NCBI RefSeq assembly: GCF_014635245.1
Contig: NZ_BMCP01000001.1
Span: 620,001 to 684,000, forward strand
Reading direction: 5' to 3'
DNA: 64,000 nucleotides
Origin: Agaricicola taiwanensis
GTDB lineage: Bacteria > Pseudomonadota > Alphaproteobacteria > Rhizobiales > Methylopilaceae
The position numbers were made by a program, and so were the translations under genes. The notes beneath the pieces are model-generated. The model had not been told where the DNA came from. It did not search any database and saw only the letters and a program-made list of their open reading frames with translations. Each line of letters begins with the position of its first letter. The stretch's first letter is position 1. Shown here in pieces: positions 8,261 through 43,190 of this stretch.

Positions 8261-8313
8261 GTCTCCTTATATGTGATTTGTGCCCCGCTTGGGCGAGACC
8301 CTCTTGCCCATCC

Positions 8314-26321: not shown

Positions 26322-26397
26322 GCCCAGGTAGCTCAGTTGGTAGAGCATGCGACTGAAAATCGCAGTGTCGGTGGTTCGATTCCGCCCCTGGGCACCA
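26322..26397 (+). tRNA. tRNA-Phe (GAA)
   Basis: 76 nt including encoded CCA. GCCCAGGTAGCTCAGTTGG start, anticodon stem GCGAC/ATCGC-type with loop containing GAA, T arm GGTTCGATTCC, acceptor CCTGGGC, then A-CCA. It follows yacG and marks the left edge of a long accessory catabolic region. Confidence 0.97.
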
Positions 26398-26575: not shown

Positions 26576-26590
26576 GCTCTAGATGATTTG
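26576..26590 (+). repeat. Direct repeat copy 1 (GCTCTAGATGATTTG)
   Basis: Matches the copy at 26679-26693 in 14 of 15 positions; start-to-start distance 103 nt. Possible regulator half-sites upstream of the MmgE/PrpD operon. Confidence 0.45.
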
Positions 26591-26678: not shown

Positions 26679-26693
26679 GCTCCAGATGATTTG
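26679..26693 (+). repeat. Direct repeat copy 2 (GCTCCAGATGATTTG)
   Basis: Second copy of the 15-nt repeat. Its last three bases are the first three of the TTGACA proposed as the -35 element of the catabolic operon, a position where a bound repressor would block the promoter. Confidence 0.45.
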
Positions 26694-26718
26694 ACACTCG
26701 CACCTTATTCAGTATCGT
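26691..26718 (+). promoter_or_regulatory. Candidate sigma-70 promoter of catabolic cluster A
   Basis: TTGACA (26691-26696), 16-nt spacer, TATCGT (26713-26718), about 70 nt before the MmgE/PrpD start codon. The -35 is a perfect match, the -10 four of six. Chosen by eye. Confidence 0.4.
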
Positions 26719-26787: not shown

Positions 26788-28218
26788 ATGCCAGCAAATG
26801 CCTCTTCTCCCGCCATGAAGGCCGGGTATGAGGGTGCCGATTCCGCCGACGTCATCGCGGAGCATCTGGCGCAGGTGAGCTTTACCGACCTGCCGGAAAG
26901 CGTGGTCGCGGCGACCAAGAGGAACATCCTGGATACACTGGCCTGCATGATGGCCGGAACGGTCAGCGTGGACGTCAAGGCGATCCACGATCTGGTCCGC
27001 CACTGGGGCGGACGGGAAAGCTGCACCGTCGTGGGCGGGGGCGGACTGAAGATACCGCCGGAGAATGCCGTATTTGCGAACGGTGCGACCGTTCATCAAT
27101 TCGATTTCGACGACACCCATGACGTTGCCGTGTGTCATCCCACATCGGCCAGCCTCAGTTGTGCTTTGGCGGCGGCCGAAGAAAAGGGAAAGGTTTCAGG
27201 TCGCGAGCTGATCACCGCGGTGGCACTGGGCAATGATCTCATCGGCCGGATCGGCCTGGCCATTCATGGTAATACTAGCAGTTTTCCGTGGTTCCGCGCC
27301 CCGGTCATCGGATTGTTCGGCGCCACGGCTGCAGCCGCCAAGATCATGGGCGCCAGCGAGCGTCAGCACGCCGAAGCCCTTGGGCTCACCCTTCCGCAGG
27401 TCGCCGGTACATGGGCGAGCCTGCATCACGGAGGATCGAGCGTGCGCTCGATCAGGGACGGCCTGGCTTATCGGGATGGCGTGGTGGCGGCCGCGCTGGC
27501 CATGCGCGGCGTGCGCGGCGACCGGAGGGTTTTTGATGGCCCTTACGGCTATTACAATGTGTTCTTCCGCGGCGAGTATGATCGCAGCACACTCGTCGGC
27601 GATCTTGGCAAGCATTACGAAAGCGACCGGATCTCGCTGAAGCCCTGGCCGTCGATCCGGCATCTTCACGCCCTCTACACAGCTCTTACCGGCCTGATGG
27701 AAGAGCATAGGCTTGGTTTCGACGACATCGAGAGCGTGACTGCCGTCGTCGGGCGCATCAATCAGGCTCTGTGTGTTCCGACCGAGCCGGGAATGGTCCC
27801 CGACCGGCGTATCGATCTTCTGTGTAATCTGCCTTTCGGGCTCGGTGCGACGATCCTGCACGGCAATACAAAGCTCGCGATCTACAACGATCCTGCACTT
27901 GCGGACGACGTGATCGCGCGCGGCGTGCCAAAGGTTCGCTGGCGTTACGACGAGCGCCAGAACGGCCCCTGGACGTTCGAGCCTGGCCGTGTCGAGGTTG
28001 TGACGAGAGATGGCAGAAAGCTGGAAGCCACCTCGACGACAGCTTTGGGGCACCCCGACAATCCCATGTCGACCGAGCGCCGCCATGCCAAGGTTTTCGA
28101 CTGCGCCGCCAATGCCGCGACTCCCATTCCCGTGGAACGCGCGCAACAGATCATCGATCTGGTTGAGCGACTGGATGAACTCGAGGATGTCAGCAGCCTC
28201 GCGGCCTTGCTGGCATGA
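26788..28218 (+). CDS. MmgE/PrpD family protein
   Basis: 476 residues. Clear MmgE/PrpD (2-methylcitrate dehydratase/cis-aconitate decarboxylase fold) protein: ATKRNILDTLACMMAGTV, NGATVHQFDFDDTHDVAVCH with the conserved DFDD-T region, GLTLPQVAGTWAS and KPWPSIRHLHALYTAL. The family includes PrpD, cis-aconitate decarboxylase, iminodisuccinate epimerase and many unknowns, so the reaction cannot be named. ATG 26788 follows GGGGGAGC; a longer frame from 26743 lacks a site. First gene of cluster A; the stop overlaps the CoA-transferase start (ATGA). Confidence 0.9.
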   Translation: MPANASSPAMKAGYEGADSADVIAEHLAQVSFTDLPESVVAATKRNILDTLACMMAGTVSVDVKAIHDLVRHWGGRESCTVVGGGGLKIPPENAVFANGATVHQFDFDDTHDVAVCHPTSASLSCALAAAEEKGKVSGRELITAVALGNDLIGRIGLAIHGNTSSFPWFRAPVIGLFGATAAAAKIMGASERQHAEALGLTLPQVAGTWASLHHGGSSVRSIRDGLAYRDGVVAAALAMRGVRGDRRVFDGPYGYYNVFFRGEYDRSTLVGDLGKHYESDRISLKPWPSIRHLHALYTALTGLMEEHRLGFDDIESVTAVVGRINQALCVPTEPGMVPDRRIDLLCNLPFGLGATILHGNTKLAIYNDPALADDVIARGVPKVRWRYDERQNGPWTFEPGRVEVVTRDGRKLEATSTTALGHPDNPMSTERRHAKVFDCAANAATPIPVERAQQIIDLVERLDELEDVSSLAALLA

Positions 28219-29435
28219 TCGACGGGGCCGAAGACGTGGCCGCAAACGAGGCGCCCCGGCCGGTCGGCGGCATCAGGGTTGTCGATGCCTCGCGCGTGCT
28301 GGCCGCACCGTTTTGTGCGTCGATCCTTGCCGACCTCGGCGCTGACGTCGTTCATCTCGAGCACCCCTCGGCAAACGACGAGGTTCGTGCCTGGCAGCCA
28401 ATCGTCAACGGCGTGTCGGCGAGTTTCCTTGCCATGAACCACAGCAAGAAGGGTTTGGCGGTTGATCTATCCAGGCCGGAAGGTATCGCCATTCTGCGGC
28501 GGCTGCTGGAACGGGCCGATGTCTTCATCGAGAACTTCCGGCCCGGCACCATGGAACGCTATGGCCTTGGCTTCGACGCCATCCGGAAATTCAATCCTCG
28601 GCTGATCTATTGCGCCGTGCGGGCCTTTCCGGCCGGCTGCGCCTCGGAGGGAATGCCGGGCTACGAGGCTTCCACTCAGGCCTATACCGGTGTCATGAGC
28701 CTGACGGGCGAAGGCAGCGGCGATCCGGTTCGCTGTGGTCCGAGCGTCATCGATCTCGGCACGGGACTTTCCTCGGTGATTGCCATTCTGTCGGCTCTGC
28801 TGCAGCGCGACCGAACAGGGCAGGGCGCCTATGTGGAGCCATCGCTGATCAGAACGGCAACCAACTATCTCACCTACCAGATCTCGGGATATTTCATGGC
28901 TGGTGCCTTGCCGCAGCGGCGCGGCAGCGGCCATGAGGCGCTCGTTCCCTACCGCGTGTTTAATTGCTCGGACGGACCGATATTCATCGCCGGCGGAAAC
29001 GACCGGCTGTGGGCCGTTCTGGTGGGCGTGTTGGGCCTCGCCGGCGCTGGCGGGGAGGTCCCTTATCGTCTTCTGGCAGAGCGCATCGCCAATCGTGCCG
29101 AAGTCGACCAGCTTGTCTCGGAGGCCGTCGGAACCTGGAACCGCGCTGAGTTGCTCGCCGCCTTTCGGGCGAGCGGCCTGCCAGCGGCGCCGGTGAATAC
29201 GATAGCGGAATATGTTGCCGACCCCACTCTCTTCGAAGCGCATGTGCTCGAGGAGATCGAGGTGCCGGATGCCGGCCGATCGGTTTTAGCGGGGCCGCTG
29301 TTTGGAGCTGACTTTCTGGCACCCAAACGCACGGCGGCGCCGCGTCTCGGCGAGCATACCGATGAAATACTAAGCGACATCGGCTTCAGTCCTGATGATA
29401 TCGTCCGGATGAGGGAAGAGAGGCTGGTATCCTGA
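28215..29435 (+). CDS. CaiB/BaiF (class III) CoA-transferase
   Basis: 406 residues, standard size. Family III features: GIRVVDASRVLAAPFCASIL, LGADVVHLEHP, LDLSRPEG-type NHSKKGLAVDLSRPEG, VFIENFRPGTMERYGL, and the catalytic-Asp segment VIDLGTGLSSVIAIL (D180). These enzymes move CoA between carboxylic acids through an aspartyl-CoA anhydride. It overlaps the MmgE/PrpD gene by 4 nt, so the acid handled by the MmgE/PrpD protein is probably activated to its thioester here (inference). A 181-nt gap follows before the ABC importer genes. Confidence 0.92.
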   Translation: MIDGAEDVAANEAPRPVGGIRVVDASRVLAAPFCASILADLGADVVHLEHPSANDEVRAWQPIVNGVSASFLAMNHSKKGLAVDLSRPEGIAILRRLLERADVFIENFRPGTMERYGLGFDAIRKFNPRLIYCAVRAFPAGCASEGMPGYEASTQAYTGVMSLTGEGSGDPVRCGPSVIDLGTGLSSVIAILSALLQRDRTGQGAYVEPSLIRTATNYLTYQISGYFMAGALPQRRGSGHEALVPYRVFNCSDGPIFIAGGNDRLWAVLVGVLGLAGAGGEVPYRLLAERIANRAEVDQLVSEAVGTWNRAELLAAFRASGLPAAPVNTIAEYVADPTLFEAHVLEEIEVPDAGRSVLAGPLFGADFLAPKRTAAPRLGEHTDEILSDIGFSPDDIVRMREERLVS

Positions 29436-29616
29436 GAAAGCAATAAAACTGATCCTTCTGCTTGATGTCTTCGCTTTTGTGATGATTGCGGGACGGTCAT
29501 GCTTGTAAGAATTTGTCTTATGTCTTTCCGACTCGTCTAGTTATTAAATGATGTAGTGTTGACATGGGCGCGGGAGGCATATCTACTTTAAAAAAAGAAT
29601 GTCAGGAGGGGAGAAA

Positions 29617-30408
29617 ATGCATGCGCCGACGGGCAGTGTCGATGCTGGTGCAGGTTTGCGACGCCCTGCGATTGACTTCCGTGACGCAAGCGTCAGGTTT
29701 GGCGACTTCACGGCGATGGGCCCCGTTAATCTGACAGTTGAGCGGGGTGAATTTCTTGTAATCGTTGGGCCAAGTGGTTGTGGAAAATCCACATTACTGA
29801 ACCTGGTTGCTGGAACGCTGCAGCCCTTCACCGGAGAAACAATATTCAACGGTGCGCCTGTCGAAGGTCTAAACCCGGCGGTAGGCTACATCACCCAGAA
29901 GAACTATTGTCTGCCCTGGCTCACGGTCGAGGGTAACGTGCGTCTGCCGCTCGAATTTCGCAGGTTCCCCAAGGCGCAGGTCGCGAGTCTTGCCGCCAGC
30001 GCACTCGAGCGCGTGGGTCTCCGGGGTTTCGAGAAGGCATACCCGCGGCAGCTTTCAGGCGGCATGCTCCAGCGTGTCATGATCGCGCGCACGTTGGTCT
30101 ATGAGCCGGACATCTATCTGATGGATGAGCCGTTCGGCAGCCTCGATGCGTTGCTTCGGACGAAGATGCACGATGAAATCCTGCATCTTTGGAAGGACAC
30201 TGACGCCACCTTTGTCTTCGTGACGCATGACCTGGCTGAAGCCGTCACCCTGGCCGATCGCGTCGTTGTCATGTCGGGCCGTCCCGGACAAGTGAAACTG
30301 ACGTTGGATATAGATCTGCCGCGCCCGAGAGATGTGGTTGATATCCAGAGCAATCCGCGCTTCGGCGGCTATATCAAGACGCTCTGGGAGGCGCTCGACC
30401 TCAACTAG
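29617..30408 (+). CDS. ABC transporter ATP-binding protein (NitT/TauT type)
   Basis: 263 residues from ATG 29617. Walker A VGPSGCGKST, Q-loop YITQKNYCLPWLTV, signature LSGGMLQRVMIAR, Walker B DIYLMDEPFGSLDA, switch His in FVTHDLAEAV. Closest in type to SsuB/TauB/NrtD ATPases, which energise uptake of sulfonates, nitrate or other small anions. An ATG at 29599 is in frame, but its own codons form the strong ribosome-binding site AGGAGGGGAGAAA for the ATG at 29617, so the latter was chosen. Forms an importer with the next two genes. Confidence 0.92.
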   Translation: MHAPTGSVDAGAGLRRPAIDFRDASVRFGDFTAMGPVNLTVERGEFLVIVGPSGCGKSTLLNLVAGTLQPFTGETIFNGAPVEGLNPAVGYITQKNYCLPWLTVEGNVRLPLEFRRFPKAQVASLAASALERVGLRGFEKAYPRQLSGGMLQRVMIARTLVYEPDIYLMDEPFGSLDALLRTKMHDEILHLWKDTDATFVFVTHDLAEAVTLADRVVVMSGRPGQVKLTLDIDLPRPRDVVDIQSNPRFGGYIKTLWEALDLN

Positions 30409-30482
30409 ACCGGCTCGAGGCGGCGATGAGCCCGCGGTCTTCTGGTGCGAGGTTATTCTGCAAATCAAGCGGGAGTTGAACG

Positions 30483-31352
30483 ATGAGTATGAATACCGCG
30501 GCGGTCAACTCGAGAAAAGCAACGGGCGCGCATGAGGGCAGGGCGCCGACGCAACGCAAGTCATGGGCCGTTCCACTGGGTCTCCAGCAACTCCTGGTGT
30601 TCGTGTCGCTGCTGGCGACCTGGCAGATCACCTCCCTCTACTTCAGCCTGGATTTCTGGATTTCCAGCCCCGTCGCGGTGTATCAGGAGTTCATCCGATG
30701 GTACGCGTCGGGCACGCTTCTGAACGACCTGCGGATGACACTGACCGCGGCGGGAAGCGGCTTCGTCATCGGCAGCATCGGCGGCGCCATCATCGGCTTC
30801 CTGCTCGGGTGGATCCGCAAGCTCGGAGACCTTCTGGAACCGCTCATCCTGTCGCTCTACAGCCTGCCAAAGGTCGCTTTGGCACCGCTCTTCGTGCTGT
30901 GGTTTGGTATCGGCATAACCAACAAGATCATGTTTGCCGCCATCATTGTATTCTTCATGGTGTTCTTCACCACGTTTCAGGGCACCCGGCAGGTCGACCG
31001 CGACATGATCACCAACGCCCGTCTCTTGGGCGCGTCGAAGTTCCAGACCTGGACGCGAATTGCCATTCCCTATTCGTCCATCTGGGTGATCACCGGTTTG
31101 CGCATCGGTCTGCCCTACGCTTTGATCGGGGCGATCGTCGGCGAGTTTGTTGCCGCCAATGCAGGTGTCGGCTACCGGATCAAGGAGGCCACGTCCTACT
31201 TCAATACCTCCGGCGTGTTTGCGGGACTGATCATGTTGATGCTGATCAGTTTCACGCTTCTTGGAATCCTGAAGCTGATCGAAAAGCGCGTTCTTTACTG
31301 GCAGACCGCCGAGGTGGCCCTCGGAGAAGATGCGTCGAAGCATATCCCCTAG
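30483..31352 (+). CDS. ABC transporter permease (NitT/TauT type)
   Basis: 289 residues, six predicted membrane helices, with the EAA-loop signature DRDMITNARLLGASKFQTW followed by RIAIPYSSIWVITGLRIGLP, as in SsuC/TauC permeases. The N-terminal 30 residues are hydrophilic. GGGAG stands 7 nt before ATG 30483. It lies 74 nt after the ATPase gene and 36 nt before the binding-protein gene, so the three are one operon. Confidence 0.92.
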   Translation: MSMNTAAVNSRKATGAHEGRAPTQRKSWAVPLGLQQLLVFVSLLATWQITSLYFSLDFWISSPVAVYQEFIRWYASGTLLNDLRMTLTAAGSGFVIGSIGGAIIGFLLGWIRKLGDLLEPLILSLYSLPKVALAPLFVLWFGIGITNKIMFAAIIVFFMVFFTTFQGTRQVDRDMITNARLLGASKFQTWTRIAIPYSSIWVITGLRIGLPYALIGAIVGEFVAANAGVGYRIKEATSYFNTSGVFAGLIMLMLISFTLLGILKLIEKRVLYWQTAEVALGEDASKHIP

Positions 31353-31388
31353 CACTCGCTACAAAAGAAGAATCCGGGAGGAAACAAC

Positions 31389-32378
31389 ATGAGACCTATT
31401 CTTGCCTTATCCGTTCTCTGCGGCGCTTTGGCCTGCCTCGCTTCCCCAAGCGCCAAGGCCGAGACGGTGCCCCTCAAGGTTGTCATTGGCTCCAATTCCT
31501 TTGCCTATGGCGGCATGCGTGTGGCCGAGCACGCCGGAATCCTGGAGAAGAATGGCATCAAAGCGGAGATCGTCGTCGCTGAGAGCGGTAATGCGGCAAC
31601 GACGGCTCTGATCTCGGGATCCGCTGAAGTGGCGGCGTCCGGTCCCGAGCAGGTGATCGCCGCTGCCGCGCGTGGTCAGAAGATCGTTATCCTGGGCAAC
31701 CTTTACCGCGGACTGTCGGGATCCCTGGTTCTCAGCGAACCGATAGCCAAGAAAATGACCGTGAAGCGGGATGCTCCGGTCGTAGAGCGCCTGCGCGCCC
31801 TGGATGGGTTGACCATTGCAACGCCAAGCGCAACCTCAGCCTATACCGTTCCGCTCAAGACCTTCGCTGAAATGAACGATGTGAAGATCAACTTCACCTA
31901 TATGGCACAATCGGCCATGCCGGCTGCTCTGAAGACCGGCGCGATCAATGGCATGATGGCCGGCTCGCCCTACACGGATGCCGGTGTCTTGGCCAGCGGC
32001 GGAACGCTTTGGATCGACGGCACTGGTGGCGAACTTCCGGAAGAAGTGGAGCCAACAAGCTCGACTGTTCTGCAAACGACGGAGGAGTTCGCCAAGACGA
32101 ACCCGGACGTGGTGAAGCGCCTCATCAAATCTTTGGAGGATTTGAAGGAGATGATCGCGCAGGACCCTGATGGTGTGAAAGCCGCGATGTCCAAGGCCTA
32201 TCCGAAGTTGGACAAATCGACGATCGACAGCGTGTTCGAGCGGAACTCGGCCAACTGGGCGCAACCGGAGTACACGATGGCGCAGATCCAGAAGGAGCTC
32301 GGCTTCGTCAAGACACAGGGCCGGATCCAGGGCGCCGACAAGATTGTCCCGGAGTCACTGCTCTATTCCAATCCCTGA
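31389..32378 (+). CDS. ABC transporter substrate-binding protein (NMT1/THI5/SsuA-like)
   Basis: 329 residues. Sec signal peptide (MRPILALSVLCGALACLA, cleavage after KA near residue 24), then a type II periplasmic binding fold typical of NMT1/SsuA proteins: VVIGSNSFAYGGMRVAEHAG, GNAATTALISGSAEVAASGP, LDGLTIATPSATSAYTVP. The ligand is likely a small organic acid or aromatic given the surrounding CoA genes, but this is inference. GGGAGGAAAC precedes the ATG. The gene is followed by a strong UUCG-capped hairpin (32393-32421). Confidence 0.92.
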   Translation: MRPILALSVLCGALACLASPSAKAETVPLKVVIGSNSFAYGGMRVAEHAGILEKNGIKAEIVVAESGNAATTALISGSAEVAASGPEQVIAAAARGQKIVILGNLYRGLSGSLVLSEPIAKKMTVKRDAPVVERLRALDGLTIATPSATSAYTVPLKTFAEMNDVKINFTYMAQSAMPAALKTGAINGMMAGSPYTDAGVLASGGTLWIDGTGGELPEEVEPTSSTVLQTTEEFAKTNPDVVKRLIKSLEDLKEMIAQDPDGVKAAMSKAYPKLDKSTIDSVFERNSANWAQPEYTMAQIQKELGFVKTQGRIQGADKIVPESLLYSNP

Positions 32379-32392
32379 ATGTTGGACGGCGG

Positions 32393-32421
32393 CCATCGGC
32401 ACCCTTCGGGGTGTCCGATGG
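32393..32421 (+). other. UUCG-tetraloop hairpin after the binding-protein gene (cluster A)
   Basis: Arms CCATCGGCACCC and GGGTGTCCGATGG close on a TTCG tetraloop; 12 pairs with one bulged base. It begins 14 nt after the binding-protein stop and ends 23 nt before the enoyl-CoA hydratase ATG. No U-tract, so an mRNA-stabilising or attenuating hairpin is more likely than a full terminator. Confidence 0.65.
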
Positions 32422-32444
32422 GTCTGCCTCGTATAAGGACGCCA

Positions 32445-33263
32445 ATGATGCATGTGCGGAATTCATCCGAGCGGGCCGACGAGGCCTCCTCTGCTGAGGT
32501 CGTGGTGGAGAGGATTTCGGAGGGGGTCACCCAGCTCCGCCTCAATCGCCCCGAGCGGCTGAACGCGCTAGGCCTTTCGATGGTCCGCAACCTGCGTGAT
32601 GCGGTCGAAGCATTGGCGAACGATGGAACCCGCGTCCTGCTGATACGCGGGTCCGGGCGGGCATTCTGTTCCGGCGCCGATCTGAAGGAGCGCCAGACCA
32701 TGAGCGTCGACCAGCGTGTGGAGCACAATGCAGCGATCAACGCGGCGATCGATGCGATAGCGGAAACGCCAGTTCCGACCATTGCTGTTGTCAATGGCCT
32801 GGCCTTCGGCGGCGGGTGCGAAGTGGCCCTTGCCTGCGATATGCGGGTGGCCGCGCTGGATGCGCTCATTGGATTGACGGAGACGCGGATTGGCGTCATC
32901 CCCGGCGCTGGCGGGACGATGCGTCTGCCGCGGCTTATTGGCAGTGCGCTCGCCTTGGAAATGATGCTGTCGGGAGAGCCGGTAACCGCCGAGCGCGCTC
33001 GCGAGATGGGGCTCGTCAATCATGCAGTTCCCGTGGGCGAGCTCGACCACAGGGTGGCGCAGCTGGCGGCATTGATCGCGTCGCGATCGCCGCTTGGCAC
33101 GCGCGAGATTAAGCGCCTCGTGCGGGACGCGCCGGATCTCACGGCATCGGAATGTCTCCAGAACGAGCGTCGCTCATTGGTTCGCGTGGTTGCATCAGAA
33201 GATTATGCGGAAGGACTGGCTGCCTTTGCGGCACGACGCGCGCCCGTCTTCGTGGGACGCTAG
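32445..33263 (+). CDS. Enoyl-CoA hydratase/isomerase (crotonase) family protein
   Basis: 272 residues. Crotonase fold with oxyanion-hole segments FCSGADLKER and GLAFGGGCEVALACD, and VIPGAGGTMRLPRLIG. Both acid/base glutamates of true hydratases appear present: one in GGGCEVAL, one in LTETRIGVIPG. It should hydrate an enoyl-CoA made downstream of the CoA-transferase. ATG 32445 follows AAGGA at good spacing; a longer frame begins at 32379 inside the hairpin region and was rejected. Confidence 0.9.
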   Translation: MMHVRNSSERADEASSAEVVVERISEGVTQLRLNRPERLNALGLSMVRNLRDAVEALANDGTRVLLIRGSGRAFCSGADLKERQTMSVDQRVEHNAAINAAIDAIAETPVPTIAVVNGLAFGGGCEVALACDMRVAALDALIGLTETRIGVIPGAGGTMRLPRLIGSALALEMMLSGEPVTAERAREMGLVNHAVPVGELDHRVAQLAALIASRSPLGTREIKRLVRDAPDLTASECLQNERRSLVRVVASEDYAEGLAAFAARRAPVFVGR

Positions 33264-33408
33264 GTAAGGATGCGCGCTGTCGTCCTTGGTCGTCAGGGGG
33301 CGGCTTCGACGTCCAGCCACTGCCGATGCCGGAACTGGCGGAGGCTGGAGGCGCGGCAGTCTGCAGGCAAGGTCTGTATTCGGGTTGTGTGTGCTACGGG
33401 AGGCTTCC

Positions 33409-34359
33409 ATGAAGGTTGCCATACTTGATGACTATCAGGATGTGGCGATCAGCTGTGCCGATTGGGAACGGCTGGGTCCGTCCGTCGAGATCAGGGCCTT
33501 TCGCGATCCCCTGAAATCGGAAGCGGATCTTCTTGAGCATCTGATCGATTTTGACGTGATCGTCCTGATGCGCGAGCGGACGCCGTTTGGCCGGAGCGTG
33601 ATCGAAAGCTTGCCGCGGCTGCGCCTTCTGGTGACCACGGGAATGCGCAATCAATCCATTGATGTCGAGGCAGCGAAGGCTGCGGGTATCGTGGTCTCCG
33701 GCACGGACTCGGTTGGTCAATCGACGGTGGAACTGACCTGGGCACTGATCATGGCCCTGGTCCGGAATATTCCGCAGGAGCTGGAATCCTTTCGTGGGGG
33801 AGGCTGGCAGGTCGGGCTCGGCGAGCTGCTCCAGGGCAAGACGCTTGGAATTCTGGGCCTTGGCAGGCTCGGCACCCGCGTAGCTGCGCTGGCGCAGGCC
33901 TTTGAGATGAAGACGCTGGCGTGGAGCCGCAACCTCACGGTCGAACGTGCAGAGGCGGCGGGTGTTCGCCTGGCGGCAAGTCTTGATGAATTGTTGTCGG
34001 AAGCCGACGTGATCACGATCCATCTTGTACTCGGAGACGGGACACGTGGTCTGATCGGCCGCGATCAGTTCGCGAAGATGAAAGAGACCTGTTATCTGGT
34101 CAATGCATCCCGAGGCCCGATCGTGAACGAGCACGCATTGGTCGAAGCGCTGGAATCGAGGCGGATCGCGGGGGCTGCCATTGACGTCTTCGATACAGAG
34201 CCATTGCCAAGCGACCACCCGTTCCGCACCCTCAGGAACGTGGTTGCCACGCCGCACATCGGCTATGTCTCGCGGGAAAACTATATGCTGTTCTATGGCC
34301 AGGTGGTTGAGGACATCGCCGCCTTCGCAGCGGGCAATCCGATAAGACAGCTTAGTTGA
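33409..34359 (+). CDS. D-2-hydroxyacid dehydrogenase family protein
   Basis: 316 residues. NAD-binding D-isomer-specific 2-hydroxyacid dehydrogenase: N-terminal MKVAILDDYQDVAI, Rossmann motif LGILGLGRLGTRVAALAQ, and the catalytic Arg-Glu-His set in VNASRGPIVNEHAL, DVFDTEPLP and VVATPHIGYV. The group beginning MKVAILDDYQ includes many uncharacterised SerA-like enzymes; it would interconvert a 2-keto and a D-2-hydroxy acid. GGGAGG stands 7 nt before ATG 33409; the frame upstream to 33286 is not protein-like. Last gene of cluster A; its stop lies 33 nt from the stop of convergent cluster B. Confidence 0.9.
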   Translation: MKVAILDDYQDVAISCADWERLGPSVEIRAFRDPLKSEADLLEHLIDFDVIVLMRERTPFGRSVIESLPRLRLLVTTGMRNQSIDVEAAKAAGIVVSGTDSVGQSTVELTWALIMALVRNIPQELESFRGGGWQVGLGELLQGKTLGILGLGRLGTRVAALAQAFEMKTLAWSRNLTVERAEAAGVRLAASLDELLSEADVITIHLVLGDGTRGLIGRDQFAKMKETCYLVNASRGPIVNEHALVEALESRRIAGAAIDVFDTEPLPSDHPFRTLRNVVATPHIGYVSRENYMLFYGQVVEDIAAFAAGNPIRQLS

Positions 34360-34392: not shown

Positions 34393-35532
34393 TTAGTCCA
34401 GCAGTTCGCGCGCAATCACCATGCGCTGGATCTCGCTGGTGCCCTCGACGATCTCCAGCACCTTGGCTTCTCCCAACAGCCCGGAGACCGGGAATTCCTC
34501 GAACACGCCATAGCCGCCGTGGACCTGGATCGCCTTCAGGGCCGCCTCGACCGCGAGCTCACTGGCGAAGAGCTTGGTCTTGGAGGTCTCGTTGCGGAAC
34601 GGACGGCCTTCGTCCACCAGTGTCGCCGAATGCCGCACCATCAGTTCGGCGGCGTGGATCTTGGTGAGGATATCGGCCAGCGGAAACGCCAGGCCCGGCT
34701 GCGCGAGAATGCTCTTGCCGAAGAGCTTGCGGTCCCGGCCGTGGGCCTTTGCGAGGTCGATGGCACGGCGCGCCAGCCCAAGGCCGGTGGCCGCGACGAG
34801 GATGCGGCCGATGCTGAGAACGCTCAGGATCTGCTTCAGGCCGTCGCCTTCCTCGCCCACCCGGTGACGGTCGGGGATCCTGACGTTCTCCAGATAGAGC
34901 TCGACGGAATCGGCAAAGCGCCAGCCGATCTTGCGGGAGGGCTTCCCCACCGAGAAACCGGGTGTACCCACCGGTACCACGAAGCAGGTCAGGCCCTTCG
35001 GCCCCTTATCTGGATCTGTGACCGCGACGATGCTGGAAAAGCCGTGCAGCGAGGTGCCGCCGTTGGTGGAGAAGATCTTCGATCCGTTCAGAACCCAGTC
35101 GCCGCCGTCGCGCACGGCGCGGGTCCGGATATTGGCGACGTCGGAACCACCATGGGGTTCGGTCACGCCGAAGGAACCGATCATACGGCCCTCGCAGACG
35201 GCCGTCAGCCATTCGCTTTTCAGCTCGTGGGAGCCGAAGCGCGCGATCAGCGAGGTCGGCGCGCTGTTGCAGAGATAGATCGCCGCGAAGGAAGGTTCGA
35301 TGCGGGCCAGCACCTCCGCGACTATCGCGGCGCCACGCGTGCCGAGCCCTGCACCGCCGTAATCGGGATCATAGGCCGTGCCGAGATAACCTAACCGGCC
35401 GAATTCCGATACGAGGTCGGCGGGAAAGAGGTGGTCGCGCAGGAACGCGGGCATGGCGGGCGCCAGGCGTTCACGGGCAAAACGGTCCACCGCCTCGCTG
35501 AGCGCGAGCTCTTCATCGTTGAGAGTGAACAT
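34393..35532 (-). CDS. Acyl-CoA dehydrogenase
   Basis: 379 residues, normal length. FAD-dependent alpha,beta-desaturation of an acyl-CoA. Motifs: GSFGVTEPHGGSDVANIRTRA (cut short of 20 in each half), GWRFADSVELYLENVRIP, FGKSILAQPGLAFPLADI, VHGGYGVFEEFPVSGLLGEA and the catalytic Glu in IVEGTSEIQRMVIAREL. Last gene of cluster B, 24 nt after the crotonase gene. Electron acceptor (ETF) genes are not in the window. Confidence 0.93.
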   Translation of the reverse strand: MFTLNDEELALSEAVDRFARERLAPAMPAFLRDHLFPADLVSEFGRLGYLGTAYDPDYGGAGLGTRGAAIVAEVLARIEPSFAAIYLCNSAPTSLIARFGSHELKSEWLTAVCEGRMIGSFGVTEPHGGSDVANIRTRAVRDGGDWVLNGSKIFSTNGGTSLHGFSSIVAVTDPDKGPKGLTCFVVPVGTPGFSVGKPSRKIGWRFADSVELYLENVRIPDRHRVGEEGDGLKQILSVLSIGRILVAATGLGLARRAIDLAKAHGRDRKLFGKSILAQPGLAFPLADILTKIHAAELMVRHSATLVDEGRPFRNETSKTKLFASELAVEAALKAIQVHGGYGVFEEFPVSGLLGEAKVLEIVEGTSEIQRMVIARELLD

Positions 35533-35556
35533 GATCCGATGTCTCCGAGCTCTCGT

Positions 35557-36300
35557 TCAGACCTTGGCGGCGAAGCGAGCGAGCGTGGCACGCGCCGTCT
35601 CATGCGCGCAGTTGTCGGCGAAGATCCGCCCTGCCGCGGCGTCCCAGGCCTCGGCCTGCACGGAGATCGCCTGCTGGAAGAATTCCTTGGTGGAGCGCAC
35701 CGCCGGGGCGGGAAGCGCCGCGATCCGCGCGGCAAGCGTCGCGGCATGGGATGCGGCCTCCCCGCTCGGCACACAGTAATCGGCCACGCCCAGCCGGCGC
35801 GCCTCCTCGCCATCAAGCGTTTCGAAGCCCCAGACCAGCCGCCGGGCATTGACAGGGCCGACCCGGGCGACCAGCGCCTGGAGGCCCCAGGGCGGCAGCC
35901 AGCCGTTCGGCACTTCCGGCAGGCTCCAGCGCGCATCGGCGCCGGTCACCACCAGATCGCAGGAGGCGGCGAGGATGAAGCCGCCGCCGAGGGCATAGCC
36001 TTCCACGGCCGCGACCACGGGCACACTGACAAGGCCGATGCGGCGCGCCATGGCGGCGGTGTCGGCCTCGTTGGCGACCATGCCCGGCACGTCCATGGTG
36101 CCGAGCTCCTTCAAATCGCTGCCGGCGCAGAAGCTGGGTGCGGCGCCGGCAAGGACCACGGCACCGACGTTCGGGTCATTGTCGAGATCGGCGAAGGCGC
36201 GGGTCAGCTTCGCCACCAGTTCGGCCGCGAGCGCGTTGCGCCGCTGCGGCCGATTGATCGTGAGGGTGGCCACGCGATTGGCAATTGTGATGTCGAGCAT
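35557..36300 (-). CDS. Enoyl-CoA hydratase/isomerase-family (crotonase) protein lacking one catalytic Glu
   Basis: 247 residues. Crotonase fold with FCAGSDLKELG and EGYALGGGFILAASCDLV. At the place where hydratases have GGGCE the sequence is GGGFI, so the first catalytic Glu is missing; the second is kept in WSLPEVPNGWLPPWGLQAL, where the usual GAGG is also changed. This argues for an isomerase, lyase or hydrolase role rather than classical hydration. Part of cluster B between dctM (45 nt) and the acyl-CoA dehydrogenase gene (24 nt). Confidence 0.85.
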   Translation of the reverse strand: MLDITIANRVATLTINRPQRRNALAAELVAKLTRAFADLDNDPNVGAVVLAGAAPSFCAGSDLKELGTMDVPGMVANEADTAAMARRIGLVSVPVVAAVEGYALGGGFILAASCDLVVTGADARWSLPEVPNGWLPPWGLQALVARVGPVNARRLVWGFETLDGEEARRLGVADYCVPSGEAASHAATLAARIAALPAPAVRSTKEFFQQAISVQAEAWDAAAGRIFADNCAHETARATLARFAAKV

Positions 36301-36345
36301 GTCGATGTCGCCTTACCTTTGGGATTGGGTGATTGACGGCGCGCG

Positions 36346-37659
36346 TTACTTCAGCAACGCCGGCAGCCAGAGTGCGATCTGGGGGAAGGACATCACCAGC
36401 GCGAGCCCGATCAGCTGAAGACCGATGAAGGGCACGACAGCGCGGAAGATATCCGACAGCGTGATTTCCGGCGGGGCGACAGCCTTCAGATAGAAAGCGG
36501 CCGCGCCAAAGGGCGGCGTCAGATAGGACACCTGCATGTTCATGGTGAAGAGGACGCCGAACCAGATCGGATCGAAACCAAGCTGGCGGATGACCGGCAC
36601 GAAGATCGGCATGGTCAGGAGCACGATGCCGATCCAGTCGATGAAGCAACCGAGCACGATCAGGATCAGCATCATGATGCCAACGGTCACGATCGGTGCC
36701 ACCGGCAGACCCGTGATGGCGCCCTGTAGGAAGCTGGTGCCGCCGGCCAGCGTATAGACCGCCACCAGCGCCGAGGCGCCGAAGAAGATCCAGGTCAGCA
36801 TGGCGACCGTGCTGCCGGTGGTCTTGACCGCGGAATAGATCATGTCCCAGGTCAGCTTCCGGTTCACCAGCGCGATGATGATCGCACCGAGCACGCCGAC
36901 GGCGGCGGTCTCGGTGGGGGTGGCGATGCCGAGATAAAGCGAGCCGAGAACGGTCGTGATCAGGGCGAGCGGAAGGAACAGCGCACGGCCGAGCAGCAGC
37001 TTCTCGCCCAGCGGCATGGAAAGCTCCTCATCGGAGGCGAGGGGCCCAAGCGCCGGATTGCGGTAGCAGCGGATCAGCACATAGGTGAGATAGAGGCCGA
37101 CCAGAAGGAAGCCCGGAAGAACCGCGGCCAGGAACAGCTCGCCGATCGATACCTGGGCGACCAGGCCATAGACGATCAGGACGATGCTCGGCGGCAGCAG
37201 GGTTCCGAGCGAGCCGCCGGCGCAGATGACGCCGACTGCAAGCCCTCGATCATACTGCCGCTTCAGCATGGCGGGGAGGCATACGAGGCCGAGCACCACG
37301 ATCTCCGCGCCGATGACGCCAACCATGGCGGCAAGCACGGTGGAGGCGAGCAGCGTTCCGACCGCAAGGCCGCCGCGCAGCCGTCCCGACCAGATGTGGA
37401 GGACGTGAAACAGTCGCTCGACGACGCCGGCTCCTTCCAGGATGCAGCCCATGAGCACGAACAGCGGCACCGAGATCAGCGCATAGTTGTTCATCAGCGT
37501 GAACATGCGGCTCGGGATGAAGTAGAGGCTTTCCGGCCCGAACAGCCAGAGGGTGAGGATCACGGCGGTGGTGCCGGTCGCGAAAGCCAGCGGAATGCCC
37601 GTCGCCAGCAGGAGAAGCAGCAGTCCGATCGTTACGAGGCTGACGATTTCACCGGACAT
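36346..37659 (-). CDS. TRAP transporter large permease (DctM)
   Basis: 437 residues, about 12 membrane helices. DctM family signatures: GIPLAFATGTTAVILTL, FVLMGCILEGAGVVERLF, CAGGSLGTLLPPSIVLIVYG, ATPTETAAVGVLGAIIIAL and GCFIDWIGIVLLTMPIFVP. Sodium-coupled importer subunit that works with DctQ and DctP. Its start overlaps dctQ by 11 nt. Confidence 0.94.
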   Translation of the reverse strand: MSGEIVSLVTIGLLLLLLATGIPLAFATGTTAVILTLWLFGPESLYFIPSRMFTLMNNYALISVPLFVLMGCILEGAGVVERLFHVLHIWSGRLRGGLAVGTLLASTVLAAMVGVIGAEIVVLGLVCLPAMLKRQYDRGLAVGVICAGGSLGTLLPPSIVLIVYGLVAQVSIGELFLAAVLPGFLLVGLYLTYVLIRCYRNPALGPLASDEELSMPLGEKLLLGRALFLPLALITTVLGSLYLGIATPTETAAVGVLGAIIIALVNRKLTWDMIYSAVKTTGSTVAMLTWIFFGASALVAVYTLAGGTSFLQGAITGLPVAPIVTVGIMMLILIVLGCFIDWIGIVLLTMPIFVPVIRQLGFDPIWFGVLFTMNMQVSYLTPPFGAAAFYLKAVAPPEITLSDIFRAVVPFIGLQLIGLALVMSFPQIALWLPALLK

Positions 37660-38146
37660 TGGAGAGCTCCCGACAGGCTTGGACGAAACAGACGATGGTC
37701 TGGAGGACCATCAGGGCGGCACCGACCGGGATCGCGATCTTCAGATACATCGGAGAGTGGGAGTTCCAGCCGGCGCCTGTGGTCTCGCCGCCGAGCACCG
37801 AAGGATAGGCTTGCTGGTAACCGTAGTAGACGACCGCAAGCAGGAAGACCAAGGCCAGCAGATGCGCAATGATCGTCATGATCATCTGCGCCCGCTTGGG
37901 AAGCAGTCGATAGATGAAATCGATTCTGACGTGGCCGTCGTTCTTGATCGCATAGGCCCCGGCGATCATGTAGTGGATGCCCGCCAGCATGATGACCAGC
38001 TCGAGACCCCAGATGGTCGGGCTGTTGAAGAAATACCGGCATGCGACGTCATAGACGGTGACGACGAAGACGACGAGATAGAGGAGACTGGAATAGTCCC
38101 CGATTTTCTGGTTGAGCGCGCTGATGGCATTGCCGATCGCGTTCAT
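37649..38146 (-). CDS. TRAP transporter small permease (DctQ)
   Basis: 165 residues, four predicted membrane helices. DctQ features: VVTVYDVACRYFFNSPTIWG and LAGIHYMIAGAYAIKNDGHVRID (conserved R-x-D at the end), YRLLPKRAQMIM. It is fused neither to DctM nor DctP; overlaps dctM by 11 nt and lies 95 nt after dctP, with a strong hairpin in between (38192-38214). Confidence 0.92.
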   Translation of the reverse strand: MNAIGNAISALNQKIGDYSSLLYLVVFVVTVYDVACRYFFNSPTIWGLELVIMLAGIHYMIAGAYAIKNDGHVRIDFIYRLLPKRAQMIMTIIAHLLALVFLLAVVYYGYQQAYPSVLGGETTGAGWNSHSPMYLKIAIPVGAALMVLQTIVCFVQACRELSNVR

Positions 38147-38191
38147 GGCCGCCTCCGGTCACGGATGTGGTGGGATCGCATGTCTTGCGGT

Positions 38192-38214
38192 GGTCCCGGC
38201 AGGATGCCGGGACC
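38192..38214 (-). other. 10-bp GC hairpin between dctP and dctQ
   Basis: Perfect inverted repeat: GGTCCCGGCA and TGCCGGGACC around a 3-nt loop, 27 nt downstream of the dctP stop on the transcribed strand. No U-tract. In binding-protein operons such hairpins commonly protect the upstream message from 3' exonucleases and give higher binding-protein expression. Confidence 0.7.
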
Positions 38215-38241
38215 ATGCGTCAGGCCGGACGAAGTCCAGCG

Positions 38242-39276
38242 TCAGTCGATCAGGCCGATCTTGCGGAGGTAGGAGACCTGTGTTTCCACGGCCCGTTTGG
38301 TCAGCTCATTCTTGCCCGCATAGGCGTTCCAGGTATCGACGGCGGCCTTGCGGAACTCACGCCGGTCCTCTTCGCTCCAGTCGACCAGTTCGACGCCCTC
38401 GGCCTTGAGCTCTTCGGCGACCTCCAGGTTCTGCTTCTCCAGGGTCTGGATCATGTCGAGGCTGAAGTCGCGGACGGCGATCTCGAGCGTCTTCTGCAGA
38501 CGCGGGCTGAGCTTTTCCCAGACCTTCAGCGGAATGGAGACATCACCGACGGGCATGGAATGCACGCCGGGATAGATCGCGAACTTAGCCTTGTCGTGGA
38601 AGCCGAGCTCCGCGTTCATGGCAAGCGTGCCCCAGTCGGTCGCCTCGATGGTGCCGTTGTCCATGGCGCTGAAGGTTTCGGAGCCCGGAAGATTGACCGG
38701 AACGGCGCCGAATTTCTCGAACAGCTCCGAGGCCATGCCCTGCGGCAGACGGATCTTCAGGCCTTTAAGATCCGCGACGCCGCCGACCCGCCGGGTGGTG
38801 GGGATGGACTCAACGCCCCACCAGGCAACGCCAATCGGATAGAGACCGAGGGGCTTGTAGGCCTCCTTGAGGATCTCCATCCCTTCGTACTTATAGAAGT
38901 ATTCCATGGCCTGGTACGGATTGTCGTAGGCCGCGTTGAGATCGCCTATCGCGGCGAAGACCGGGTTGCGGCCGGTCCAGTAGACGGTGGCGGGATGCTG
39001 TCCGTCGAGAATGCCGCGGCTGACCGCATCCAGCGTCTCGTTGACGCCGACGATCGCGCCCACGGGCAGCGGGGTGATCTTGATCTGGCCGTCGGTCATG
39101 GTGGCGACGTTCTCGGCGAAGCGCTCGAAGGCCTCCTGGTTGGCGGTCCCGGGCTGCCAGAGCGTCTGGATGCGCCAGTTGTAGGTTTCCTGCGCCAGGG
39201 CCGGCGCGGAGAAGAAGCCCACGGCCATGGCGGCGGCGGCGAGCTTCAGCGAAGTCCTGCGTGATGTGCCTTGCAT
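38242..39276 (-). CDS. TRAP transporter substrate-binding protein (DctP)
   Basis: 344 residues. Twin-arginine-like or Sec signal (MQGTSRRTSLKLAAAAMAVG, cleavage near ALAQ), then DctP family features: YNWRIQTLWQPGTANQEAFE, ITPLPVGAIVGVNETLDAVS, LKGLKIRLPQGMASELFEKF with the substrate carboxylate-binding Arg, and SGTMDNGTIEATDWG-like AMDNGTIEATDWG. The Trp-containing patterns resemble the lactate/keto-acid or mannonate-type group, but the ligand is unknown. It is bracketed by hairpins at 39362-39380 and 38192-38214. Confidence 0.93.
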   Translation of the reverse strand: MQGTSRRTSLKLAAAAMAVGFFSAPALAQETYNWRIQTLWQPGTANQEAFERFAENVATMTDGQIKITPLPVGAIVGVNETLDAVSRGILDGQHPATVYWTGRNPVFAAIGDLNAAYDNPYQAMEYFYKYEGMEILKEAYKPLGLYPIGVAWWGVESIPTTRRVGGVADLKGLKIRLPQGMASELFEKFGAVPVNLPGSETFSAMDNGTIEATDWGTLAMNAELGFHDKAKFAIYPGVHSMPVGDVSIPLKVWEKLSPRLQKTLEIAVRDFSLDMIQTLEKQNLEVAEELKAEGVELVDWSEEDRREFRKAAVDTWNAYAGKNELTKRAVETQVSYLRKIGLID

Positions 39277-39361
39277 TGAACGTTCCTCATCCTGGGGATC
39301 GCGCTTGGCCGATCCTGGTTCATTGTTGCCGGCGCTTGCCGCGCCGTTTGCTTCTTCTTAT

Positions 39362-39380
39362 CCGGCGCCGAGGGCGCCGG
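39362..39380 (-). other. 8-bp GC hairpin between the CoA-transferase gene and dctP
   Basis: CCGGCGCC and GGCGCCGG around a 3-nt loop, 16 nt after the CoA-transferase stop on the minus strand and before the dctP start. Followed by ATAAGAAGAAG rather than a U-tract, so partial termination or a processing/stability element fits better than a simple terminator. Confidence 0.6.
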
Positions 39381-39396
39381 CATTCTTCGGTGGCGG

Positions 39397-40995
39397 CTAG
39401 GCGTTTACGGTAACGGCGGCCGCGGGGGCTTCCCGGAAAAGGTCGGCATCCATCAGCGGCAAGGGGTCAAGGATGGCAGCCGGGGCATAGTCCATGCGGT
39501 CGAGCACGTCGCGCCGAACGTCGACGCCAGGCGCGATCTCCGTCAGCACGAGGCCTTCGGGGCGCACGTCGAAGACCGCGCGTTCGGTCACCACCACCGC
39601 CGTCTGGCCGCGGCCGCGAACCCCATCGGCGACGCGGTAGGTCACGCTTTCCGCCTGTGTCGCGAACTTGGAGATCTTGCCGTCACGGACGATGTCCAGC
39701 CGCCCATCCTGGCAGCGGGCATCGAGGCCGCCGGTGGTGAAGGTGCCGGTGAAGACCAGCCGCCGCGCGTTCTCCGCGATGTCGATGAAGCCGCCGGCGC
39801 CGGGATTGGCCGTGCCGAACTTGGAGACATTGACCACGCCCGCCGCGTCATATTGCGCGAAGGCGAGAGCCGCGAAGCGGCAGAGGCCGCCATCGATGGC
39901 GTCGAACTGATAGAGCCCGTCGATGATCGCTTCCGGGTTGATGTTGGCGGAGAACTGCCAGCCGGACATGACGACGCCGCCATAGGAGCCGTGCTCGGTG
40001 GTGAACCAGTAGTCGTTCAGGCCGCCGTCGTCGAACAGCCCGTCCTCGGCCATGACGAGCGGAATGTCGGCGGCCGCGCCGAAGCCGAAGATCGACAGTT
40101 CGCGCTTGCGCACCTCGCGCGCCGCGCGGCGGGCGATGACCTTGTCCGGCGACATTTCCGGCCGCGGCAGCGCCGAGAGCGGCCGGCGCGTGCCGGAGAA
40201 ATAGGCCGGGTCAAAGGCGACGTCCGTCGCCATCATCATCTCCGGGTCGATCACCACCTCGTCGACGAAATAGCCGGGAAGCCCGACCCTGGAAGCCGGC
40301 CGCTCCCCCGCCGGCACCACCCGCCGGACCTGGGCGATCACCCGGCCGCCGGATGCCTTGGCCGCCAGGATGAGCCCCATGTTGGAGGAGACCAGGGCCT
40401 CGTCCTCCCAAGAGAGGTTACCGTGTTCGTCGGCGGTGGAGGCGCGCACGATGGCGACATCGATCGGCCAGGTGGGATAGAACAGCAGGGTCTCGCCATT
40501 GACCTCGATCTTCTGCACGAGATCGTCCTTGGCGCGGGAGGTGAACCTGCCTCCCCCGAGATCGGGGTCGATGTAGGTGCCGAGGCCGACACGGGTGAAA
40601 TAGCCGGGGCTGCGGCGCGCCACCTCCCGCAGCCAATGCATGGAGGCGCCGATCGGCCAGGAGTAGGCCTCGACAAGATTCTCCCGGATCAGGCGCATCA
40701 GCTCCGGCCGTTTGCCGGTGACGGGGTCCACGGGGTTGATATAGGAGCCGGAGACGATCCGCTTCATGAGGCCTTCCTGGGCCACATGGTCCATGCCCCT
40801 GATGCCCTGGGCATCGCCGGTCCCGCAGGGAAAATAGAAGTTGAGATTGCGCGGCGCGCCGGTCTGGCGAAAGCGCTCGCCGAGGGCTTTTAGGACCGCA
40901 TCGGGGGTGATCCAGCCGATTACACCGACCGAGGCGACTGTGGCGCCGTCGGAGATGGAAGCGACCGCAGCCGCGGCAGTGGAGATCTTGGTCAT
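39397..40995 (-). CDS. Acyl-CoA:acetate/3-ketoacid CoA-transferase (fused alpha-beta, YdiF type)
   Basis: 532 residues, both halves of a family I CoA-transferase in one chain. First half: ISDGATVASVGVIGWITPDAV and NLNFYFPCGTGDAQGIRGMD; second half: catalytic Glu in YWFTTEHGSYGGVV, DAAGVVNVSKFG, NPGAGGFIDIAENARRLVFT. It transfers CoA to a carboxylic acid, presumably the one carried in by the neighbouring TRAP system. 63 nt separate it from the FAD oxidoreductase gene upstream, 120 nt with a hairpin from dctP downstream. Confidence 0.92.
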   Translation of the reverse strand: MTKISTAAAAVASISDGATVASVGVIGWITPDAVLKALGERFRQTGAPRNLNFYFPCGTGDAQGIRGMDHVAQEGLMKRIVSGSYINPVDPVTGKRPELMRLIRENLVEAYSWPIGASMHWLREVARRSPGYFTRVGLGTYIDPDLGGGRFTSRAKDDLVQKIEVNGETLLFYPTWPIDVAIVRASTADEHGNLSWEDEALVSSNMGLILAAKASGGRVIAQVRRVVPAGERPASRVGLPGYFVDEVVIDPEMMMATDVAFDPAYFSGTRRPLSALPRPEMSPDKVIARRAAREVRKRELSIFGFGAAADIPLVMAEDGLFDDGGLNDYWFTTEHGSYGGVVMSGWQFSANINPEAIIDGLYQFDAIDGGLCRFAALAFAQYDAAGVVNVSKFGTANPGAGGFIDIAENARRLVFTGTFTTGGLDARCQDGRLDIVRDGKISKFATQAESVTYRVADGVRGRGQTAVVVTERAVFDVRPEGLVLTEIAPGVDVRRDVLDRMDYAPAAILDPLPLMDADLFREAPAAAVTVNA

Positions 40996-41058
40996 GTCGG
41001 CCCTTCGTGTCGTGTAAGGCGCGGCCTCGGCCCCGCTTCTTCGAAATCTCTGGTCGGC

Positions 41059-42387: not shown

Positions 42388-42418
42388 GCCCGCTTCTCCC
42401 TGTCCGATTGGTCTTTGC

Positions 42419-42448
42419 CAATCTGATAGACAACTGACATATCAATTG
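42419..42448. promoter_or_regulatory. Imperfect palindrome, candidate GntR/FCD operator
   Basis: Inverted TGATA (42424-42428) and TATCA (42440-42444), extended by CAAT and ATTG on the outside with one extra base in the left arm. It sits in the divergent region between cluster B and its GntR-type regulator, where an FCD-family repressor would be expected to bind. Site choice by eye. Confidence 0.5.
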
Positions 42449-42487
42449 CTGATGACGGGGTCAACCGGTAGGCTCGGGACGAATCTT

Positions 42488-43174: not shown

Positions 43175-43190
43175 CGGCACGGTTGCGCCG

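Follow-up and report, generated by a model that had tools for sequence, protein, structure and literature searches.

The question raised by the locus described here is which compound a short operon serves to break down when all its gene families are familiar and none of them names a substrate. The locus is a cluster of seven genes in a 64,000-nucleotide stretch of the genome of the alphaproteobacterium Agaricicola taiwanensis (contig NZ_BMCP01000001.1, positions 620,001 to 684,000, or G000:C1:620001-684000; hereafter the window). The genome measures 3.76 Mb and is the sole member of its genus in the sets that we searched. The genes encode an MmgE/PrpD protein, a class III coenzyme A (CoA)-transferase, the three parts of an ATP-binding cassette (ABC) importer, an enoyl-CoA hydratase and a D-2-hydroxyacid dehydrogenase. 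An earlier note on this DNA had read them as serving the uptake and breakdown of an organic acid, possibly along an itaconate- or aconitate-type route, and could not name a pathway. Uptake, CoA activation, hydration and oxidation remain the natural reading, the itaconate or aconitate hint does not, and no named pathway for this gene set was found in the family libraries or in searches of open-licence papers. As a catabolic operon the cluster is ordinary but for one mildly unusual enzyme, and it is modestly interesting.

The seven genes and the MmgE/PrpD active site

All seven open reading frames lie closely packed on the + strand within positions 26788-34359 (Table 1), and they clear their Pfam cut-offs widely: MmgE_PrpD_N (PF03972) scores 206 bits, CoA_transf_3 (PF02515) 353, ABC_tran 106, BPD_transp_1 99, NMT1_2 50, NMT1 49, ECH_1 199 and 2-Hacid_dh_C (PF02826) 198 bits. 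The gene list and family assignments made previously therefore hold: the genes are real and correctly classified, the families are ordinary, and no family model names a substrate. Among the NCBIfam matches listed (for the ATPase the best 25 of 185 rows, for the hydratase the best 25 of 73), no cut-off is reached by any of the seven proteins. The first two genes overlap by 4 bases, and the hydratase frame starts at the base directly after the stop of the binding-protein gene; the other gaps are, in order, 163, 74, 36 and 145 bases. Co-transcription of the seven genes is likely.

The residues that we take to be catalytic are present in the CoA-transferase, the hydratase and the dehydrogenase. 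The CoA-transferase belongs to class III, with Asp180 in the motif VIDLGTG, and reaches the cut-off of none of seven named NCBIfam families (succinate-glutarate, 285 bits against a cut-off of 750; mesaconate, 223; formyl-CoA, 218; oxalate, 216; carnitine, 104); its best PDB matches, succinate-hydroxymethylglutarate CoA-transferase and formyl-CoA transferase, are nearly equal. The hydratase is a crotonase with both of the presumed catalytic glutamates, Glu148 and Glu168, recognised by motif. Since its homology begins near residue 38, it may start inside the open frame, which has Met at residues 14, 23 and 24. The dehydrogenase has the GxGxxG motif and the Arg, Glu and His motifs ASRGP, DTEPL and TPHIG of the D-2-hydroxyacid family. 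The ATPase, the permease and the NMT1/SsuA-type binding protein, whose hydrophobic N-terminus reads as a probable signal peptide, make up an importer of the SsuABC/TauABC type.

The MmgE/PrpD protein has both domains of its superfamily (the C-terminal one, PF19305, at 69 bits). In a phmmer search of the PDB its best matches are cis-aconitate decarboxylase (E 5e-31) and iminodisuccinate (IDS) epimerase (1e-28). The same two enzymes are the best solved neighbours of its AlphaFold model (predicted local distance difference test, pLDDT, 88; predicted template modelling score, pTM, 0.91), at TM scores of 0.78-0.89 (2hp0 and 7br9, 0.80-0.89). According to a 2025 study on methylsuccinate isomerase (PMC12290011), six residues, the catalytic His and five that coordinate carboxylates, are conserved among the characterised activities, a common C2 enolate mechanism is proposed for MmgE/PrpD enzymes, and the isomerase is inactive on the CoA ester. 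The roles of the catalytic His and of the epimerase Tyr are supported in another study, in which His277 is not kept in the Bacillus protein (PMC7347537). The window protein was aligned (MAFFT) with human cis-aconitate decarboxylase, to which it is 24.6% identical, with the other 20 MmgE/PrpD proteins of the genome and with five outside relatives; the alignment holds no epimerase or isomerase sequence, and their residues, as listed in PMC12290011, were mapped through the human decarboxylase.

Four of the six conserved positions are kept, namely His103, Asp106, the catalytic His117 and the enolate lysine Lys285, and two are changed. Phe169 stands at human His159 and Arg220 at human Lys207. Human His277 corresponds to Ile290, a replacement that counts for little because no other row of the alignment has His there. 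The phmmer alignment agrees with MAFFT at these three positions. Thus, only His103 is kept among the decarboxylase residues His103, His159, Lys207 and His277 (human numbering). No Tyr is found in the segment of the window protein that corresponds to the second base of the epimerase (Tyr145/148), and Phe and Arg occupy the His150/Lys198 (His152/Lys202) pair of IDS epimerase and methylsuccinate isomerase. The NCBIfam models for PrpD give 29, 24 and 20 bits against cut-offs of 950, 575 and 458, the 575-bit model being that of the 2-methylcitrate dehydratase/aconitate hydratase family. Judged by residues or by scores, the protein falls outside each characterised MmgE/PrpD activity. Its chemistry is probably the family's own, its residues indicate that the handling of the carboxylate differs from that of the characterised relatives, and the altered active site suggests that the substrate is probably none of the known ones.

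Within the genome the Arg is peculiar to this protein: at the position of human Lys207, 19 of the 21 MmgE/PrpD proteins have Lys and one has Pro. His is kept at the position of human His159 in 12 of the 21. Outside the genome, Arg occurs at the Lys207 position in four of the five aligned relatives (L010, L014, L015 and L016), all without the paired His, and does not occur there in two further relatives (L051 and L052). In a tree of 29 rows, the window protein falls in a group of 11 (support 97/96), of which an inner group of eight (84/85) includes the protein of the sister cluster described below and six outside relatives. The enzyme looks like part of an uncharacterised branch.

Relatives in the genome and elsewhere

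The nearest internal relative of the cluster, which the earlier note did not cover, is the sister cluster L024 (G000:C2:911500-927500; Table 1) on another contig. The window hydratase is 57% identical to that of L024 (G000:C2:921981), the next best in the genome being 39%, and the two MmgE/PrpD proteins are 33-34% identical. Unlike the window cluster, L024 includes a lyase of the RipC/CitE type (182 bits to RipC, against a cut-off of 375), a CoA-transferase of the butyryl-CoA:acetate type and a GntR regulator, with a TctC receptor gene nearby; the genes scanned there include neither an ABC importer nor a 2-hydroxyacid dehydrogenase. Lyases of the RipC/CitE family cleave malyl- or citramalyl-type esters. 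The L024 hydratase, accompanied by such a lyase, thus most likely makes an ester of this type, and the window hydratase may do likewise, given its kinship with the L024 enzyme. L024 itself resembles a citramalyl-CoA-type pathway in variant form, its hydratase being a crotonase.

The genome is unusually rich in MmgE/PrpD genes, another point beyond the earlier note. Its 21 genes (contigs C1, C2, C4, C5 and C7) are the highest count among the 101 genomes searched, itself included; 54 of these have any, and the next counts are 14 and 7 (the family member G004 holds 14). An MmgE/PrpD gene is found no more than 5 kb away at five of the 12 class III CoA-transferase loci of the genome (binomial P 4e-4). 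When the window is left out and one adjacent pair is merged, the figure is 4 of 10 (P 0.002), with P 0.008 at 8 kb and 0.015 at 10 kb. An acyl-CoA dehydrogenase gene adjoins the CoA-transferase gene at L025, L030 and L027/L033, the company known from methylsuccinate-type clusters. The cluster is thus one of several sites in this genome at which an MmgE/PrpD gene accompanies a CoA-transferase gene. Two tandem MmgE/PrpD genes, 22-25% identical to the window protein and with overlapping listed frames, were also seen at L018 (G000:C5:137500-154500, positions 6288-9109).

No close orthologous cluster was found in the genomes sampled. Among 61 relatives searched with the MmgE/PrpD protein at E<=1e-80, none of the 60 besides this genome matched. 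The protein had one match in another genome among 397 of the order at E<=1e-60 (32%), two in other genomes among 385 of the class at E<=1e-64 (34% and 32%), and one partial match (30%) in a scan of species genomes; the highest identity found, 36.3%, came from a plasmid search with 31 matching records. It should be noted that the order and class searches scored the top four candidates per genome and that the scan of species genomes relied on six 8-residue patterns matched exactly, so that relatives of middling similarity could be missed and absence is unproven. The hydratase had no match in other genomes among 289 of the class at E<=1e-70 (best eight candidates per genome scored) and none in 72,556 plasmid records at E<=1e-60. 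Of 387 genomes of the order, none of the 386 besides this one matched the binding protein at E<=1e-50; the 240 class genomes searched at E<=1e-20 gave a single match (27%), four of the 60 other relatives gave matches of 24-30% at a limit of E<=1e-10, and one plasmid record gave a match of 28%. The binding protein had no match among PDB sequences at E<=0.01, and the nearest solved folds of its model, at 12-20% identity, belong to a family with many ligands. Of 76 plasmid records with relatives of the dehydrogenase, the best 25 show 51-58% identity; of six neighbourhoods examined, one in Roseomonas adjoins genes for a class III CoA-transferase and an acyl-CoA dehydrogenase, one in Agrobacterium adjoins prpF, a citrate symporter gene and acnA, and the other four have genes unlike those of the cluster.

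Conservation of the gene neighbourhood, proposed previously as a check, was not borne out in the neighbourhoods compared. These were six outside neighbourhoods of MmgE/PrpD relatives, L015 and L016 by their incomplete annotation and L014 (whose record is unannotated there), L051, L052 and L053 against 18 window proteins. ABC ATPases aside, they have at most one gene type in common with the cluster: a hydratase nearby in L016, a class III CoA-transferase 3.3 kb from the MmgE/PrpD gene in L051, and a distantly related 2-hydroxyacid dehydrogenase at 1.8 kb in L053. An ABC ATPase gene directly precedes the MmgE/PrpD gene in L052, and L014 and L053 each have another. None of the six combines two of CoA-transferase, binding protein, hydratase and dehydrogenase.

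Within its family the cluster is, as sampled, specific to this genome. Synteny places its start on the variable side of a conserved murA-hisD-maf-yacG block that ends in tRNA-Phe. The sample comprised stretches from 14 of 17 other family genomes, all with a maf match, of which three (L036, L039 and L045) stop at a contig end about 3 kb beyond maf; hisD and maf are present in all 14 and the tRNA in 11. In none of the 14 stretches did tblastn (best non-overlapping matches, E<=1e-8) detect the MmgE/PrpD protein, CoA-transferase, binding protein or dehydrogenase, and the matches obtained were weak ones to the ABC genes and to a few that lie at the window's far end, with matches to the acyl-CoA dehydrogenase (28%) and hydratase (34%) in L048. 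In five of the 11 stretches (L040, L041, L042, L044 and L046) some 1-10 kb separate the tRNA from maf, so variation is not limited to one side of it. A mobile-element origin was considered and set aside: no second copy of the tRNA-Phe 3' end was found in the window at up to 3 mismatches, leaving no attachment-site evidence and no repeated end to mark a boundary, in the course of an analysis that included no systematic integrase search.

What the operon may do

We tentatively favour the view that the cluster is a single operon, which would let the strain grow on an organic acid taken in by the SsuABC-type transporter. Once taken up, the free acid would lose its C2 proton to His117 of the MmgE/PrpD protein, with Lys285 holding the enolate, and would become an unsaturated acid through loss of water, loss of CO2 or a double-bond shift. 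The class III CoA-transferase would then load CoA on one carboxylate, and the crotonase would hydrate the product to a malyl-CoA-like ester with its hydroxyl adjoining the free carboxylate. CoA-transferase would next hand the CoA to another substrate molecule, as CaiB does, freeing an acid that would be a 2-hydroxy acid, because a malyl-type ester has its hydroxyl beside the free carboxylate. This would give a job to the otherwise odd D-2-hydroxyacid dehydrogenase, which would oxidise the freed acid to a 2-oxo acid that could enter central metabolism. Homology and chemistry suggest the order of the reactions, the malyl-CoA-type intermediate and the cycling of CoA. For the exchange step the model is CaiB/CaiD, the pair of class III CoA-transferase and crotonase that hydrates an acid with CoA recycling in carnitine metabolism; the window enzyme is not a CaiB orthologue, its 104 bits comparing with a cut-off of 413 for L-carnitine CoA-transferase. 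A stronger version, in which an uncharacterised MmgE/PrpD branch with Arg for Lys and the paired His lost, as in Paraburkholderia, Rhizobium-type and Variovorax relatives, carries out a novel reaction on an acid of a novel kind and feeds a CoA-recycling hydration to a 2-oxo acid without a C-C lyase, strikes us as doubtful.

Several observations weigh against a single operon of this kind. The relatives of the MmgE/PrpD protein and of the CoA-transferase have no stable shared neighbourhood, no regulator gene lies within the seven-gene cluster, the class III CoA-transferases of the window and L024 are only 30% identical, and in the reduced set of CoA-transferase loci the association falls to 2 of 10 at 3 kb (P 0.06). 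Phe and Arg in place of the carboxylate-holding His and Lys mean that a 1,4-dicarboxylate substrate is not assured. A dicarboxylate ligand is named in none of the 50 fold matches listed for the binding protein, the named ligands of the nearest folds being sulfonates, thiamine precursors, pyrroloquinoline quinone and inorganic ions, and the plasmid-borne relative has monooxygenase, VOC and fumarylacetoacetate-hydrolase genes as its neighbours, a setting that points to a substrate of another kind. The dehydrogenase, with 51-58% relatives in many unrelated neighbourhoods, may be a passenger.

One of the main rivals is that the cluster is a mosaic with no common substrate, in which a CoA-dependent acid unit (mmgE, CoA-transferase and hydratase genes) received an inserted SsuABC-type importer and a generic terminal dehydrogenase. 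The ABC genes do separate the CoA-transferase gene from the hydratase gene, the two widest gaps precede the importer and the dehydrogenase, genes of the dehydrogenase type turn up in unrelated settings, the site is on the variable side of a conserved block, and the outside neighbourhoods described above lack paired partners. However, all genes are co-oriented, the hydratase frame follows the binding-protein gene directly, and G+C is modestly lowered over the whole set (0.57-0.63, against 0.60-0.68 in the flanking kilobases examined), and we regard a mosaic as rather unlikely. The other main rival joins the cluster to the convergent organic-acid genes directly downstream, cluster B (Table 1), in one methylsuccinate-like pathway: the MmgE/PrpD protein would isomerise a 2-substituted succinate, the CoA-transferase would activate one enantiomer, the acyl-CoA dehydrogenase of cluster B would make the enoyl-CoA, the hydratases would add water, and a lyase from elsewhere, such as that of the sister cluster, would finish. 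Such a combination of MmgE/PrpD protein, acyl-CoA dehydrogenase and CoA-transferase is the methylsuccinate arrangement in PMC12290011 and PMC9875883, the latter two enzymes are paired near other MmgE/PrpD genes of this genome, and the acyl-CoA dehydrogenase of the window is 35% identical to that of L025. This pathway is nonetheless improbable, as the MmgE/PrpD protein is without the isomerase Tyr and the His152/Lys202 equivalents, and the acyl-CoA dehydrogenase is encoded on the other strand, within a unit that has its own tripartite ATP-independent periplasmic (TRAP) importer and CoA-transferase, and scores best against acryloyl-CoA reductase (322 bits, cut-off 640).

The least likely reading, and in our view a very remote one, is that the MmgE/PrpD protein is a cis-aconitate decarboxylase or hydratase, with the other genes degrading itaconate and the sister cluster supplying the lyase. 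It would fit the best PDB matches, the RipC-like lyase and butyryl-CoA:acetate-type CoA-transferase of the sister cluster, and the Agrobacterium relative of the dehydrogenase beside prpF, a citrate symporter gene and acnA. The fold, the catalytic His and the enolate Lys are indeed common to the window protein, cis-aconitate decarboxylase and IDS epimerase, but identity to the human decarboxylase is low, three of its active-site residues are replaced (His277 counting for little), and the score to the 2-methylcitrate dehydratase/aconitate hydratase family is far below its cut-off. The itaconate/methylsuccinate cluster of Pseudomonas and Cupriavidus (Ict, Ich, Ccl, Mcd and Msi), as given in PMC12290011 and PMC9875883, likewise combines an MmgE/PrpD protein, a CoA-transferase and a hydratase; in P. 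aeruginosa it includes a transporter, and its substrates are branched dicarboxylic acids. The window differs in having no lyase, no co-directional acyl-CoA dehydrogenase gene and an MmgE/PrpD protein without the isomerase residues, and in having a crotonase as hydratase and an added 2-hydroxyacid dehydrogenase. The Ict, Ich and Ccl set of itaconate degradation is thus incomplete here, with no MaoC-type hydratase among the window genes scanned. As the earlier note had said of citramalyl-CoA lyase, no lyase domain, nor any citrate-synthase domain, is present among the genes scanned between 26788 and 52150.

Surrounding features and significance

Upstream of mmgE, the promoter scan gave a weak candidate site (Table 1), one of 3 of its type against 2.9 expected by chance, and no terminator was found in the promoter and terminator scan. 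The second copy of a 15-nucleotide direct repeat, GCTCYAGATGATTTG (26576-26590 and 26679-26693, 103 bases apart), overlaps this site. No further exact copy occurs in the window; when up to 3 mismatches are allowed, 5 matches including both copies are found, against 2.6 expected, and among 72 loci the 12-nucleotide core matched only L009, a copy of this region. The repeat is possibly an operator, or else due to chance. Further along, at 45143-52150, a 2335-residue open frame with CBM6 in four stretches, CBM35 and a CBM13-like domain probably encodes a large surface or secreted protein.

Table 1. Features of the window, and of the sister cluster L024 in its own coordinates
Feature	Position	Strand	Basis
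tRNA-Phe (GAA), closing the conserved murA-hisD-maf-yacG block	26322..26397	+	ARAGORN
Promoter-like site TTGACA-16-TATCGT upstream of mmgE	26691..26718	+	promoter scan, weak
mmgE, MmgE/PrpD protein, 476 aa	26788..28218	+	ORF and Pfam
Class III (CaiB/BaiF) CoA-transferase, 406 aa	28215..29435	+	ORF and Pfam
ABC importer ATPase, TauB/SsuB type, 269 aa	29599..30408	+	Pfam, NCBIfam scan
ABC importer permease, SsuC/TauC type, 289 aa	30483..31352	+	Pfam, NCBIfam scan
Periplasmic binding protein, NMT1/SsuA type, 329 aa	31389..32378	+	Pfam, NCBIfam scan, fold comparison
Enoyl-CoA hydratase (crotonase), open frame 294 aa	32379..33263	+	Pfam, catalytic Glu
D-2-hydroxyacid dehydrogenase, 316 aa, ATG at 33409	33409..34359	+	Pfam, motifs
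Cluster B, organic-acid genes: acyl-CoA dehydrogenase, hydratase, TRAP transporter M/Q/P, class I CoA-transferase, FAD-dependent oxidoreductase (PF12831)	34393-43937	-, convergent	
TauE-type protein with cluster B	within 34393-43937		
GntR/FCD regulator with cluster B	42386-43174	+	
L024, in order: MmgE/PrpD, butyryl-CoA:acetate-type CoA-transferase, hydratase, GntR, RipC/CitE-like lyase, class III CoA-transferase	L024 7757-14217		

Only four MmgE/PrpD activities have been characterised, against 50,344 homologues in one GTDB search, according to PMC12290011. A short operon with its own importer offers a direct way to the substrate of an outlying branch of this family. If that substrate proves ordinary, the cluster would be one more organic-acid operon. 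A genome with 21 family members, several of them near CoA-transferase genes, would be a good place to map the substrate diversity of the family.

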